A DNA stretch of 64,000 nt from Anaerococcus nagyae (lineage in GTDB: Bacteria; Bacillota; Clostridia; Tissierellales; Peptoniphilaceae), in NCBI RefSeq assembly GCF_017874535.1, contig NZ_JAGGLS010000009.1, forward strand, positions 1 to 64,000, read 5' to 3'. This document shows positions 38,949 through 45,619 of the stretch, in pieces. The notes under the pieces were generated by a model. The model saw only the letters and a list, made by a program, of their open reading frames with translations, did not search any database and was not told the origin of the DNA. Position 1 is the stretch's first letter. Each line of letters opens with the position of its first letter. A program made the translations under genes and the position numbers.

Positions 38949-40169
38949 TTAGATTTCTGTATTGTCTAAATCTTCTTTAATAGCTTTTGCTAGAGCTTTT
39001 ATTTCTTTTACTTGCTCCTCTTTAACAGATGAATTAATAAGTACATCTTCACCTATATAAGTATGTTTGCCAGCTTCTAGAATTTCTTTAGATTTTTTGA
39101 GACTTGTACCTCCCCATGACCAGTTATTTAAGAAAGATACATGTCTATTTTGATAACCTGTTCCTACCAATTCTTCTAAGAAGGCCTCCATTCTGTAGTA
39201 AAGACCTGAATTATAGTTAATTGGTGCAAAAACACTGTGACTATATCTATGACAATCTGAGATTATATAAGATGGATCCCAATCAGATACATCATATAAT
39301 TTAATATCTTCGCTAACTCCTAGATCAGCTAGTTCTCCTGCAAGTATATCAGCTGCTTGTTCTGTATCTCCATACATTGATGCATAAACAATTGCTATAC
39401 CTTTTTCTTCTGGAGTAAATGTTGACCATTTATTATATTTATCAAGGATAAATTTTATTGATTCTGGATCATCATAGACTGGTCCATGAAGTGGTAAGAT
39501 AGCGTTAAATTCAAGCCCTTCCACTTTTTTAAATAGTGCTTGAACTTGTTTACCGAATTTACCAACAATGTTGATATAGTATCTACGAGCTTGATCTAAC
39601 CAATTGCCCTTGTGAATTACATTTTTTGCTTTTAAGTGTCCTTCTATAGCATTAAATGAACCGAAAGCATCAGCACTAAATAAGATCTTGTTATTTGTTT
39701 CATAAGACATCATCACTTCTGGCCAGTGTACCATTGGAGCAAAAACAAATTTAAGATTATGATCTCCTATATTTAATTCATCACCATCTTTTACTTCATA
39801 ATATCTATCTTTGAACTCATCATTATAAAACTGTTCATATAATTTGAAAGTTTTTGTATTACCAATAAGTTTAGCATTTGGCCATCTTCTCATACAAACA
39901 TCTATATTTCTACAATGATCTGGCTCCATATGATGAACAACTATATAGTCTAGGTCTTCACCATCCAATGCTGCTTCAACATTTTCAATATATTGTCTAC
40001 CAAAAGCTGCATCAACGCTATCCATTAAAATATTTTTCTCATCTTTTATAAGATAAGAACTGTATGCAACCCCATTTTCTAGAGGGAACATATTTTCAAA
40101 TCTATCAATTCTTCTGTCGTTTACACCGACATAATACACATTATCTAATATTTCTCTAATATTATGCAT
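38949..40169 (-). CDS. fprA: Flavodiiron protein (FprA family)
   Basis: A 406-residue A-type flavoprotein that reduces O2 and/or NO in anaerobes. The metallo-beta-lactamase-like domain (about 1-250) holds the di-iron ligands H80, E82, D84 and H85 in HHMEPDH, then VHWPEVM, SADAFGSF and LPLHGPVY. The flavodoxin domain (about 255-405) starts with the FMN loop YASMYGDTEQAA. There is no fused rubredoxin, so an external electron donor is needed. Shine-Dalgarno AGGAGG on the minus strand. Confidence 0.94.
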   Translation of the reverse strand: MHNIREILDNVYYVGVNDRRIDRFENMFPLENGVAYSSYLIKDEKNILMDSVDAAFGRQYIENVEAALDGEDLDYIVVHHMEPDHCRNIDVCMRRWPNAKLIGNTKTFKLYEQFYNDEFKDRYYEVKDGDELNIGDHNLKFVFAPMVHWPEVMMSYETNNKILFSADAFGSFNAIEGHLKAKNVIHKGNWLDQARRYYINIVGKFGKQVQALFKKVEGLEFNAILPLHGPVYDDPESIKFILDKYNKWSTFTPEEKGIAIVYASMYGDTEQAADILAGELADLGVSEDIKLYDVSDWDPSYIISDCHRYSHSVFAPINYNSGLYYRMEAFLEELVGTGYQNRHVSFLNNWSWGGTSLKKSKEILEAGKHTYIGEDVLINSSVKEEQVKEIKALAKAIKEDLDNTEI

Positions 40170-40359
40170 AATTCCTCCTTATAGAAATCACTCATATAAA
40201 TACTATACAACTGTTAAAAAGTAAATAAAGTTATTTTGTAGAAGCAAACATTATCGAATATTTTAATATATTAGCGTAAATTGAAAGTAAAAATACTACT
40301 AATAAGACTATAAAATCACATATTTTATTTGGGGTAAAATGATATCAAGAGGTAAAATT

Positions 40360-42174
40360 ATGAGAAAAAATTTAAAAATTAGATCTACCAATTTTGAAGT
40401 TAGTATTGGTAATGTAAATAAAAATAAGGAAGAGATAAAAAAATTAGTAAAAAAAGCAGATGAAGAAGGAGTAGATATCTTATCTTTACCAGAACTTTCT
40501 TTAACAGGAGCAAGTTTATATGATGGATACAAAGACTTAACTAATCAATGTGAACAAGCTTTATATGATTTAATAGAATTTTCTAAAGAACATATGGTAT
40601 TTTTTACTGTAGGATTTCCACTTTCCTATAATAATAAGATATACAACGCCATTGCCTTAATAATAAATGGCAGCATTGCAACTCTTACTACTAAAAAAAA
40701 TCTTGGGGTTTTAGAAAAAAATGTATTTGCTAATGATATGCCAGAAGATGAATGCATTAATGCTATGGACGGATGGCAAGATATAAATATGAATTGGTAT
40801 ACAGTTAACGGTCTTTCAATAGCTATTACTATAGGAGAAGATGAGCTAATGACTATTCCTAGAAGTTTAGCTTATAAAGCAATAACAGAAGCTCAGCAAG
40901 AAATTATCTTAAATCCTTCTGCCCAAGCAAAATTAGTACTTAATGAAGATGAAATTATAAATAGAGTTAAGTTCTTGTCTAAAGATATAACTTATGTTTA
41001 TACATCTGCAGGTAGGGGAGAAAGTACAACAGACTTTGTATATAATGGTTTAAATATAATTGCAAATAACGGTGAAATAATCTCCTGTGCTACAAATATT
41101 TCCAGTGATTATATAGGCAAATATTATTTAAACTCAGATACCGATAGCTTATTTTATAAAGAATTTACTAATAAAAGGTATAAAATTGAAAAGTTTCCTT
41201 ATTTACCAGATTATGAGGATAGGGATAGGTATGTTCAAGATGTTTTAGATATTGGAGCTATAGGACTTTTAACTCGAATGGATCATATTGGAGTTAAGGA
41301 TGTATTTTTAGGTGTATCTGGTGGACTTGATTCTACCATGGCTCTTTTAATTTTAGTTCATGCTTATAGAAAAAAGGATCTGGATTTATCATCTATACAT
41401 TGCTATACTATGCCTGCTTTTGGAACAAGCCATAAGACAAAATCTAATGCCTTTAAACTATGTAAAGCTTTAGGACTTACTTTAAATGAAATAGATATAA
41501 GTGAATCTGTAAAAATTCACCTAAGAGATATAGGTCATGATGGAATTACTCAAGATACTGCTTATGAAAATGCCCAGGCTCGAGAGCGTACACAAATTTT
41601 ATTTGATTTAGCTAATATGCACAACGGTATAGTCATAGGTACTGGGGACCTATCTGAAAATATGCAAGGTTTTGCTACCTTTAATGGAGATCAAATGAGT
41701 AATTATTCTCTAAATGCTTCTCTTACAAAAACAGAAATTAGATATATAGTAGCTGCTATAGCTGAAAGCACTGAGAATATAGAGCTTAAATTAGTATTGA
41801 ACGAAATATTAGATACACCAATATCTCCAGAACTTATTAGCCAAGATAAGGGTGAAATCAGCCAAAAAACTGAGGACATAATAGGACCTTATGAGTTAAT
41901 AGATTTTTTTATATATGAACATTTAACTTACCATTTATCAGCTGAAGAAATACTAGAAGATGCTGTATCAGCTTTCTCTGATAAATATGATAGACAGACT
42001 ATTAGAAAATGGGTTATTTCTTACTTTAAAAGATTTACTTTTAGTCAATTTAAGCGATCTACTAGCGTAGATGGACCAAATATGACAGGTAGGTCATTTA
42101 GTCCACGTGCAGGGTTTAAAATAGCATCCGATATGAGCTTCTCATCTTATATAGAGGGACTAGATGAACAATAA
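40360..42174 (+). CDS. nadE: NAD+ synthase with nitrilase-fold N-domain lacking the catalytic cysteine
   Basis: 604 residues from 40360 (AGAGGT upstream); an in-frame ATG at 40339 would add seven. The synthetase domain (about 280-600) has the PP-loop GVSGGLDSTMALL, GTGDLSE and RSTSVDGPNM-type C-terminal motifs, so NAD+ formation from NaAD looks intact. The N-terminal CN-hydrolase domain keeps Glu (LPELSLTG), a Lys (TTKKNLG) and NPSAQAK plus AGRGESTTDFVYNG. However, the site normally reading EICED is TIGED, with G159 in place of the nucleophilic Cys. Glutamine cannot then be the nitrogen donor by the standard mechanism; free ammonia is likely. It overlaps the next gene by 11 bases. Confidence 0.88.
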   Translation: MRKNLKIRSTNFEVSIGNVNKNKEEIKKLVKKADEEGVDILSLPELSLTGASLYDGYKDLTNQCEQALYDLIEFSKEHMVFFTVGFPLSYNNKIYNAIALIINGSIATLTTKKNLGVLEKNVFANDMPEDECINAMDGWQDINMNWYTVNGLSIAITIGEDELMTIPRSLAYKAITEAQQEIILNPSAQAKLVLNEDEIINRVKFLSKDITYVYTSAGRGESTTDFVYNGLNIIANNGEIISCATNISSDYIGKYYLNSDTDSLFYKEFTNKRYKIEKFPYLPDYEDRDRYVQDVLDIGAIGLLTRMDHIGVKDVFLGVSGGLDSTMALLILVHAYRKKDLDLSSIHCYTMPAFGTSHKTKSNAFKLCKALGLTLNEIDISESVKIHLRDIGHDGITQDTAYENAQARERTQILFDLANMHNGIVIGTGDLSENMQGFATFNGDQMSNYSLNASLTKTEIRYIVAAIAESTENIELKLVLNEILDTPISPELISQDKGEISQKTEDIIGPYELIDFFIYEHLTYHLSAEEILEDAVSAFSDKYDRQTIRKWVISYFKRFTFSQFKRSTSVDGPNMTGRSFSPRAGFKIASDMSFSSYIEGLDEQ

Positions 42175-42970
42175 AAATAAAGTAAAGTTAGGCACGGGTT
42201 TAATTGTCGCAGGTCTTCTTATAGGAGCCTATATAGATAAACAATGTTTTGTGGCCAAGGAAGAAAAGGTAATATTAAAAAGTGAGAAAATTAAAAATCC
42301 TATTAGAATAACACAAATATCAGATTTCCATTCCAATGCTATCAAAAATTTGGATGAACTTTTAATAAATGTCAAAGATTTTGATCCTGATTTTATCATA
42401 CTTACAGGTGATATGATAGATTATGGAACGGATGCTAAGATTGACCGTAGCCTGTATTTTTTAAAAAAATTAGCAGGACTTAATAAAAAAATTTTCTATA
42501 TTACTGGTAACCATGAGGAAACGGGTCCTAATTTAGATAGATTTTTATTTGAGTTAGAAAAGCTAGGAATTGTATATTTATATAATGAATGTTACGAACT
42601 TAATATAAGAAATCAAGATATTTATTTATATGGAACTAGTATGCTTGATTTTTCCTATAAAAACTATAAACCTAAGAAAAATAGCATAAATGTAATTCTT
42701 AGTCACTATTCTAAAATTGTTAGAGATAATTATATAGGAAACGAAGATTTTATTTTCTCTGGTCATACTCATGGCGGACAGGTACGAATGCCGATAATTG
42801 GTGGATTAATAGCTCCAGGAGAAGGAGTGCTGCCTAATTATGATAAAGGGGTCTTTAACTACAAAGACTCAATTATATATGTAGATAGTGGTTTGGGAAA
42901 TACGTTTTTACCATTAAGATTTTTGGATCAAATAGAGTATAGTAATATTACTCTTGCGCCAATAGTTTAG
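42164..42970 (+). CDS. Membrane-anchored metallophosphoesterase (YkuE/YaeI type)
   Basis: 268 residues. An N-terminal hydrophobic helix (about 8-24) probably anchors it, followed by a calcineurin-like phosphoesterase domain: QISDFHSN, ILTGDMIDYG, ITGNHEETG, ILSHYS and SGHTHGGQVRMP contain the usual di-metal ligands. Related proteins act on lipid A precursors or phosphodiesters; the substrate here is unknown. It overlaps nadE by 11 bases, and its last five residues (LAPIV region) plus stop are encoded within the tRNA-Arg gene, a 15-base overlap. Confidence 0.87.
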   Translation: MNNKNKVKLGTGLIVAGLLIGAYIDKQCFVAKEEKVILKSEKIKNPIRITQISDFHSNAIKNLDELLINVKDFDPDFIILTGDMIDYGTDAKIDRSLYFLKKLAGLNKKIFYITGNHEETGPNLDRFLFELEKLGIVYLYNECYELNIRNQDIYLYGTSMLDFSYKNYKPKKNSINVILSHYSKIVRDNYIGNEDFIFSGHTHGGQVRMPIIGGLIAPGEGVLPNYDKGVFNYKDSIIYVDSGLGNTFLPLRFLDQIEYSNITLAPIV

Positions 42971-43046: not shown

Positions 43047-43703
43047 ATGAAGTCATTAGTATTACTTAGTGGAGGAGTTGATAGCTCCACGTGTCTAGCT
43101 ATGGCATTAGATAATAAGGAAGAAGTTATAGCAATTTCAATTGAATATGGACAAAGTCATGGTAAAAGAGAATTACAAGCTGCAAAAGATATAGCAAATT
43201 ATTATAAGGTAGATCATAGGATAATTGATCTATCTAATATATTTAATGCATCAAAATCATCGCTTAATAAGAATAATAACTTAGAGGTTAGCAAGGGAGA
43301 CTATGCTGATCAGGAAAATATAAATACCGAAGTAGAATTTAGAAATGGGGTATTTTTAACTGTAATGGCATCTTTAGCTCTACAATTTGACGCTAATAAG
43401 ATTTATTATGGAGCCCATTTAGACGATAGCGGAGCCATTTATGCAGATACTTCTGAAGAGTTTATAGACTCTATAACAAGGACTATAGATATAGGGACTA
43501 GATCAAAGGTAGAAGTAGTTACTCCTTTTAGAAATAAAAGAAAAGAAGATATAGTTAGAACTGGTTTAAAATTAAATCTTCCTTATGAGTTAACTTATAG
43601 TTGCTATGTTGGCGGTGATGAGCCTTGTGGTGAATGTGGAACATGTATAGATAGGAAAAAAGCATTTTTAGCTAATGGAATTACAGACGAAAAGTATTTT
43701 TAA
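43047..43703 (+). CDS. queC: 7-cyano-7-deazaguanine synthase
   Basis: 218 residues. It converts carboxydeazaguanine to preQ0 in queuosine biosynthesis. The PP-loop LLSGGVDSSTCLAM starts the protein, and the C-terminal zinc cysteines lie in CYVGGDEPCGECGTC. The ATG has AGAAAGGA upstream. No queD, queE, queF or tgt is in the window, so the rest of the pathway must be elsewhere. It begins 17 bases after tRNA-Arg, without a visible promoter between. Confidence 0.94.
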   Translation: MKSLVLLSGGVDSSTCLAMALDNKEEVIAISIEYGQSHGKRELQAAKDIANYYKVDHRIIDLSNIFNASKSSLNKNNNLEVSKGDYADQENINTEVEFRNGVFLTVMASLALQFDANKIYYGAHLDDSGAIYADTSEEFIDSITRTIDIGTRSKVEVVTPFRNKRKEDIVRTGLKLNLPYELTYSCYVGGDEPCGECGTCIDRKKAFLANGITDEKYF

Positions 43704-43946: not shown

Positions 43947-44357
43947 CTATAAATTTTTTTGGCAATCTGGGCAGATACCTGTGAATTCAAAGTTGTGTCC
44001 TTTTATTATAAATCCAGTCTCTTTCTCTATAATATTCTCTAGATTATGAACTGGACAATTTTCTATTACAAACTTTTTGTGGCAATTATTGCAAGTTATA
44101 AAGTGCTTGTGATCCTCGTTATTTAGCTGATAAAAACTTACTCCGTCAATCGTAGATTTTAAAAGAACATTTTTTTCTTCAAGTAAATTTAAATTTCTGT
44201 AAACTGTAGATAAATCTATATAAAAGTTTTTACTAAGTTTATTGTGAATTTCTTCAGCTGCTAGCGGATTATTTTCTTTTTCTAAAATTTCTAATATTAA
44301 TTTTCTTTGTTTTGTGACTTTTAAATTCTTATCTTTTAATATTTGGTTAATACTCAT
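43947..44357 (-). CDS. zur: Fur-family metalloregulator, probable zinc repressor
   Basis: 136 residues. The winged helix (about 1-80) has KVTKQRKLILEIL and the recognition region STVYRNLNLLEE. The C-terminal dimer domain has two CxxC pairs, CNNCHKKF and CPDCQ, for the structural zinc, and histidines NEDHKHFI. Divergent from znuA-znuC-znuB across 98 bases that contain a Fur-type palindrome, which makes Zur more likely than Fur or PerR. Shine-Dalgarno AAGAGG on the minus strand. Confidence 0.85.
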   Translation of the reverse strand: MSINQILKDKNLKVTKQRKLILEILEKENNPLAAEEIHNKLSKNFYIDLSTVYRNLNLLEEKNVLLKSTIDGVSFYQLNNEDHKHFITCNNCHKKFVIENCPVHNLENIIEKETGFIIKGHNFEFTGICPDCQKNL

Positions 44358-44455: not shown

Positions 44456-45619
44456 ATGAAAAAACAAAATATAGCATTAATTTTAGCACTATCAGCTACT
44501 TTAGCTGCTTGTGGTAATTCAAATCAAAATCAAGATACAGATAAGGCAGCTACTAACCAAAAGCAAGAAGAAGTAAATACAGAAAATAGCGATAACAAGC
44601 AAGATAATGATATAGAAAAAGAAGATAGCAACATAGATAATGAAGATAAAGATACAGAAAATAATGAAAGTAAACAAGTAGTATACACTTCATTTTATCC
44701 TATATATAACTTAACAAAACAAATTGCTGGAGATAAAATGGATGTCAAAGCTTTCACTAATTTAAAAACTGAAAGTCATGGTTGGGAACCATCAGCAAAA
44801 GACATGGCAGACTTATCTGCTTCTAATATCATGTTTATAAATGGCGCAGGAATGGAAGAGTGGGAAGAATCTGTTGAAGATTCATCAGATGTTGATTTAA
44901 TTAACACTAGTGAAAATATAGATTTAATTAAAGCATCAGATGAAGATCATGATCACGAACATGAGGATGCTGATGGTGACCATGATGAAAGTGAACATGT
45001 AGATGCTGATCACGAACATGTAGATGCTGATCACGAACATGAAGATGCTGGTCATGATCACGAAGAAAGTGAAGAACATCACCATCATCATGGAATGTAT
45101 GACCCACACATTTGGCTTTCACCAGTAAATGGTAAAGAACAAGCTAAAGTCATTGCAGATAAATTAGCAGAAATAGATCCAGATAATAAAGATTATTACA
45201 TGGATAATTACAAAAAAATTGAAAAAGAACTTGAGGATATGATTGATGAGTATAAAGAAAAATTTGATGGAGTAGATAATAAGGACTTCATGGTAACTCA
45301 TAAAGCATTTTCATATTTAGCACGTGATTTTGGTCTTAATCAAATGGCACTTACAGGTTTAATGTCAACAGGTGAAGTTAATCCAGATGTATTAAAAGAT
45401 GCAGTTAATGATGCTAAAAATTCAAATATTAATACCATCTTTTATGAAATGGGAGGATCTGACAAACAAGCAAAGATCTTAGCAGATGAAATAAAGGGAG
45501 ATGTAGCTCCTCTAAATACTATGGAGTATGCAACTGACGAAGACTTAGATAATGATATAAGCTATCAAGACCTTGTAAAAGCTAATCTAGAAGCCTTATA
45601 TCAATCAATGTCTAAATAA
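44456..45619 (+). CDS. znuA: Zinc ABC transporter substrate-binding lipoprotein
   Basis: 387 residues. The lipobox LAAC gives lipidated C19, followed by a low-complexity N/D/E/K linker (about 20-75). The cluster A-I binding fold (about 78-387) has YTSFYPIYNLTKQIAGD, DPHIWLSP, MVTHKAFSYLARDFG and FYEMGGSDKQAK. A long His/Asp/Glu-rich loop (about 160-210), built partly from 7-residue HVDADHE repeats, precedes the DPHIW histidine, as in zinc rather than manganese binding proteins. First gene of znuA-znuC-znuB behind the Zur-type operator. Confidence 0.93.
   Translation: MKKQNIALILALSATLAACGNSNQNQDTDKAATNQKQEEVNTENSDNKQDNDIEKEDSNIDNEDKDTENNESKQVVYTSFYPIYNLTKQIAGDKMDVKAFTNLKTESHGWEPSAKDMADLSASNIMFINGAGMEEWEESVEDSSDVDLINTSENIDLIKASDEDHDHEHEDADGDHDESEHVDADHEHVDADHEHEDAGHDHEESEEHHHHHGMYDPHIWLSPVNGKEQAKVIADKLAEIDPDNKDYYMDNYKKIEKELEDMIDEYKEKFDGVDNKDFMVTHKAFSYLARDFGLNQMALTGLMSTGEVNPDVLKDAVNDAKNSNINTIFYEMGGSDKQAKILADEIKGDVAPLNTMEYATDEDLDNDISYQDLVKANLEALYQSMSK
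44996..45058 (+). repeat. Three 21-base tandem repeats inside znuA
   Basis: Two identical copies (each encoding HVDADHE) and a third diverged copy (HEDAGHD) extend the histidine-rich metal loop. Copy number could vary by slippage while keeping frame. Confidence 0.85.

Follow-up and report, generated by a model that had tools for sequence, protein, structure and literature searches.

Two-domain NAD synthetases (NadE) are treated as glutamine-using enzymes by De Ingeniis 2012, and the characterized members accept both glutamine and ammonia in vitro according to the same text (PMC3376133). Long-form NadE enzymes are likewise described as accepting ammonia in PMC6946656. That source also assigns a double role to the YRE loop, namely contact with glutamine and formation of the bottleneck of the ammonia tunnel. 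Constriction 1 of this tunnel is built by Tyr58 and Phe130 in Mycobacterium tuberculosis NadE and is lined by the catalytic Cys in the human enzyme (PMC6946656). A precedent for a glutaminase domain that is kept but dead in an ammonia-using enzyme is human CPS1, in which the catalytic Cys is replaced and external ammonia is used (PMC4655335). CPS1 differs from the NadE analyzed here in that Ser, and not Gly, takes the place of the Cys and in that another reaction is catalyzed. Its glutaminase fold belongs to class I and is unrelated to the nitrilase fold. A search of the open-licence literature retrieved no report of a Cys-less long NadE and nothing that pairs Anaerococcus with NAD synthetase.

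The window, a 64,000-nucleotide stretch of Anaerococcus nagyae DNA, contains an uninterrupted open frame for a two-domain NAD synthetase of 604 amino acids (nadE, 40360..42174, + strand); an in-frame ATG at 40339 offers an alternative start for a protein of 611 amino acids. The whole protein scores 490.9 bits against the NCBIfam model NF002730 (PRK02628, NAD(+) synthase; cut-off 473) and is of type F, with a nitrilase-fold domain followed by a synthetase domain. M. tuberculosis NadE (structures 3dla and 6ofc), which is covered by the same model, has the same domain order and folds and is homologous over its whole length (profile E 1.6e-177). The N-terminal nitrilase-fold domain, the former glutaminase (residues 1-265, 40360..41154, +), was delimited by a match to Pfam PF00795 (residues 19-107) and by the modelled fold, and the inter-domain connector is shorter than in the M. 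tuberculosis enzyme. The C-terminal synthetase domain (residues 275-604, 41182..42171, +) is intact, as judged from a PF02540 match of 99.9 bits and from the alignment. In keeping the additional domain the protein differs from the short NH3-dependent NadE, a single domain without a glutaminase, with which it is nevertheless expected to share the use of free ammonia. The NadE proteins of five close Anaerococcus relatives are 70-74% identical to it, and a search of the window genome (99.25% complete) returned a single NadE match. The end of nadE overlaps by 11 bases with a gene for a calcineurin-like phosphoesterase (window 42164-42970), which is followed by queC at 43047; the three genes may be co-transcribed.

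An earlier note on this DNA had proposed that the glutaminase Cys is replaced by Gly in a T-I-G-E-D motif, that the Glu, Lys and NPSA motifs remain and that the synthetase domain is intact. The alignment with 3dla agreed on all points. Residues T157-I158-G159-E160-D161 correspond to E-I-C-E-D of M. tuberculosis NadE, and Gly159 (GGA, 40834..40836, +) occupies the column of the catalytic Cys176. Retained in 31 of 31 Anaerococcus genomes are Glu45 (40492..40494, +), equivalent to the acid/base Glu52, Lys112 (40693..40695, +; Lys121), Glu119 (40714..40716, +; aligned with the second catalytic Glu132) and Glu160 (40837..40839, +; Glu177); the NPSA stretch is also present. The alignment with relatives that the note had called for revealed Gly at the Cys position in all 31 Anaerococcus genomes searched, which therefore does not represent a sequencing slip. 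The window NadE has the modelled fold of a nitrilase superfamily amidase without its catalytic Cys, and across the genus the Cys-Glu-Lys triad of glutamine-dependent NAD synthetases is reduced to Glu and Lys. Another Cys at the active site, which the note had named as evidence against its reading, was sought among the three Cys residues of the glutaminase (G) domain. A stand-in for the lost nucleophile was rejected, as positions 64, 132 and 243 are Cys in only 12, 1 and 7 of the 31 Anaerococcus sequences and none is fixed in the genus.

The surroundings of the old nucleophile have changed as well. Ala51 (40510..40512, +) replaces Tyr58 of tunnel constriction 1; Ala is found in 31/31 members of the genus and Tyr in 148 of 149 Cys-bearing sequences. 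The YRE loop, counted from Lys112 to Phe123 (40693..40728, +), comprises 11 steps instead of the 15 that are standard for glutamine-dependent enzymes and are seen in all 151 Cys-bearing sequences; this shortening by four residues relative to M. tuberculosis NadE is shared by the genus (31/31, unmeasurable rows excepted). All counterparts of constriction 1 are altered in Anaerococcus, with Tyr58 changed to Ala, Phe130 deleted and Cys changed to Gly. The gate residue Trp/Phe180 and Ser203 are variable in the genus, whereas Cys-bearing sequences have Trp in 144 and Ser in 148 of 149 cases.

An AlphaFold model of the window NadE based on 19 sequences reached a mean pLDDT of 70.9 (52.1 with 6 sequences), with middling confidence in the loop and pocket region. 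Residues 5-256 of this model superimpose on the nitrilase 3ivz with a Z-score of 27.5 and an rmsd of 2.2 over 227 residues. The comparison of the whole chain with M. tuberculosis NadE gave a Z-score of 32.9 over 549 residues with an rmsd of 20.2, and a value of about 20 renders the modelled domain arrangement untrustworthy. Within Anaerococcus, 23 of the 265 G-domain positions are invariant and include Glu45, Lys112, Glu119, Gly159 and Glu160 (P 3.2e-6, for sites that were partly picked after the alignment had been seen). Median dN/dS values were 0.198 for the G-domain and 0.080 for the synthetase (S) domain in 25 pairs with dS between 0.03 and 1. They remained at 0.198 and 0.080-0.082 with upper dS limits of 1.0-1.2 and rose to 0.408 and 0.218 when 86 pairs with dS up to 1.5, near-saturated ones among them, were included. 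The glutaminase domain is under purifying selection that is looser than that on the synthetase domain; it evolves faster, with a G/S ratio of 2.25 in Anaerococcus versus 1.60 in Cys-bearing pairs. The old catalytic pocket, however, appears from these alignments to be conserved and not simply decaying. As few other parts of the domain are as well conserved, it may retain a job such as the intake of ammonium. In three pairs of Anaerococcus nadE loci (L005/L006, L018/L019 and L008/L009) synonymous divergence jumps from a low level in the G-domain to a high one in the S-domain; the step lies near codon 250 in the first two pairs and further along in the third. This pattern looks like interspecies recombination near the domain boundary.

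The absence of the Cys extends beyond the genus. In 130 genomes of the family of Anaerococcus, 48 long-form NadE sequences were found and none has the Cys; many other genera of the family gave matches to the synthetase domain alone, mostly in frames of about 240-280 amino acids. Among 212 long-form sequences collected, 149 carry the Cys and 63, from 10 of 59 families, do not, 44 of them having Gly instead; the class and the phylum were sampled and only part of the long-form matches fetched, and 63 of 212 is thus not a population frequency. Repeat-species sequences (L031-L035) were dropped, and L250 and L251, Cys-bearing members of the other two-domain subgroup, stand outside the 212 and the tree but are part of the 151 loop measurements. 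For the most degenerate sequences the placement of the Cys column is uncertain. Both states can occur within one genus: g58, which belongs to a different family in the order, contributed 18 sequences with Cys and 4 with Gly, and the g101 sequences are split between Cys (2) and Ala (2). A tree of 211 sequences built on the synthetase domain, without the short L218, requires at least nine changes of the Cys state, of which the well-supported (starred) branches force six; its deep branches are weak and the parsimony counts are blind to loss versus gain. Loss of the Cys thus appears to be recurrent in several separate bacterial lineages. All 13 aligned long-form NadE sequences from viral contigs (17 found) kept the Cys.

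The YRE loop is altered in most of the other Cys-less lineages, and has the standard length despite the loss of the Cys in L055, L086, L087, L104, L132 and L214. Comparison of loop length with the Cys state in six independent pairs, defined by starred branches, gave an average of 3.3 pairs differing in the same direction and none in the other, which does not reach significance (median p 0.25). At the position of Tyr58, several of these lineages carry Ala, Val, Ser, Thr or His, and others retain Tyr. Such intermediate states bear on the order of events. Among the nine positions tabulated, L104 deviates from Cys-bearing sequences only in the Cys itself, 49 of the 63 Cys-less sequences keep both Glu52 and Lys121, and no Cys-bearing sequence has lost either (two are gapped at the Glu), which suggests that the Cys was lost first. 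Glu and/or Lys are lost too in genera g27, g31 and g32 of the Anaerococcus family. In g31 and g32 (L048-L053) the glutaminase site has largely disappeared, with Glu and Lys lost or replaced in most sequences, yet the domain is retained in frames of 621-691 amino acids.

No match to glutamine synthetase (PF00120) was detected in the 99.25% complete window genome, while 14 of 14 control genomes were positive. The enzyme was equally undetectable in 23 of the 63 Cys-less genomes compared to 2 of the 97 Cys-bearing genomes typed (out of 149). Fisher's exact test yields 4e-9 for this association, a value that ignores relatedness. The genomes behind this link cluster on the tree, and over independent pairs, which agreed in direction in 1.6 cases and disagreed in 0.1, it is not significant (median p 0.5). 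Glutamine synthetase is still present in 40 of the 63 Cys-less genomes, and within Anaerococcus it is present in 19 and absent in 12 of 31. As all members of the genus lack the Cys and only some lack glutamine synthetase, loss of the Cys was probably the earlier event. A general loss of glutaminase Cys residues can be dismissed, since a search of the genome turned up one class I glutamine amidotransferase, which we take to be GuaA, and this enzyme has its presumed Cys motif GICYG intact.

The window NadE is very probably an ammonia-dependent NAD synthetase with a folded and constrained nitrilase domain that is dead as a glutaminase. The genus-wide loss of the Cys, the loss of glutamine-site residues and of the loop, and the single NadE match are strong support for a dead glutaminase that sits on an intact synthetase; this part of the earlier note's proposal stands firmly, and we infer its other part, ammonia as the donor. 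A glutamine-dependent two-domain ancestor would have given rise to what is now the sole NAD synthetase of the cell, its nitrilase-like domain having lost both the nucleophile and the glutamine-gating loop. Since these are gone, the enzyme would form NAD by amidating NaAD with free ammonia, and the kept domain may serve a structural role or the intake of ammonia. A pseudogene, or an error of assembly or annotation, was rejected as having a negligible probability in view of the uninterrupted frame, Gly in 31/31 genomes and dN/dS values well below 1. It is improbable that ammonia is supplied in trans by a free-standing CN-hydrolase that hydrolyzes glutamine and hands the product to NadE. The genome does encode two such proteins with an intact CYD motif (L252:1498-2268 on contig C6 and L253:1441-2232 on contig C1), and separate G-subunits are described for other NAD synthetases in PMC3376133. 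Neither gene adjoins nadE, however, and the docking place is still occupied by the enzyme's own domain. Both proteins also fall below every NCBIfam family cut-off. Models for deaminated-glutathione amidase and of nitrilase type match them best, and the two-domain NAD synthase model PRK13981 ranks below these with 67.4 versus 479 bits.

The invariance of Glu45, Lys112, Glu119 and Glu160 in 31/31 sequences could be accounted for if the pocket hydrolyzed glutamine or another amide through water activated by Glu and Lys in the space freed by Gly. We know of no nitrilase mechanism that operates without the Cys. With the glutamine-positioning Tyr58, Trp/Phe180, Ser203 and YRE loop lost or variable, and with the M. 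tuberculosis C176A variant crystallized with intact glutamine bound (PMC6946656), such a Cys-free hydrolysis is very improbable. A slightly better than even chance is given to the domain being a decaying relic, kept only because it holds together the oligomer and the active site of the synthetase; Gly would then merely relieve strain at the nucleophile elbow, and a structural salt-bridge network would account for the charged residues. The nitrilase Cys is described as sitting in an energetically unfavourable turn in PMC4812014, a strain that would explain the repeated choice of Gly. The faster evolution of the G-domain than of the S-domain, more pronounced in Anaerococcus than in Cys-bearing pairs, and the additional loss of Glu and/or Lys in g27, g31 and g32 also fit a relic. 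On the other hand, no part of the domain is more conserved in Anaerococcus than the pocket residues, and the domain has a similar length in genera that lost them, which shows that they are dispensable for the fold. What separates the relic from the ammonia-dependent synthetase is solely the role assigned to the domain, and the former reading is partly contained in the latter. The ammonia-dependent reading itself, if the domain is merely dead, leaves the invariance of Glu45, Lys112, Glu119, Gly159 and Glu160 unexplained.

A bolder proposal, which we regard as tentative and rather doubtful, is that NadE glutaminases were retired repeatedly in Clostridia in a fixed order and that in Anaerococcus the pocket became a port for ammonium. 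The Cys would be the first to go, changing to Gly or Ala; the glutamine-binding Ser and the gate Trp would be lost next, Tyr58 and the YRE loop after them, and Glu and Lys last. The new use of the pocket would have halted Anaerococcus half-way, with the tunnel bottleneck opened by the short loop together with the replacement of Cys by Gly and of Tyr58 by Ala. The invariant Glu/Lys/Glu/Glu cluster could then capture and deprotonate NH4+ and pass NH3 on to the old tunnel. The repeated Gly can be read in two competing ways, as relief of elbow strain once catalysis was lost or as widening of the tunnel mouth, and the latter would, on the bold reading, fit the invariant cluster.

Databases call such proteins glutamine-dependent, as exemplified by the window NadE clearing the NAD synthase cut-off, and flux models would bill a Cys-less NadE with glutamine. 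If the ammonia-dependent reading is true, the wrong nitrogen donor is assigned for a whole genus and scattered other lineages. The sequences provide a natural series from a change of the Cys only (L104) through partial losses (L086, L087, L089) to the rebuilt pocket of Anaerococcus, which allows one to ask whether an ammonia tunnel can be reversed to admit external ammonium. They also make it testable whether the disappearance of glutamine synthetase is linked to that of the NadE glutaminase. Further genes in the vicinity include a divergently oriented one for a flavodiiron-type protein with an ODP beta-lactamase fold and a flavodoxin domain (window 38949-40169, - strand). A ZnuA-type metal-binding lipoprotein with a His/Asp/Glu-rich insert is encoded at window 44456-45619, and its gene is adjoined by that of a divergent Fur-family regulator (window 43947-44357).
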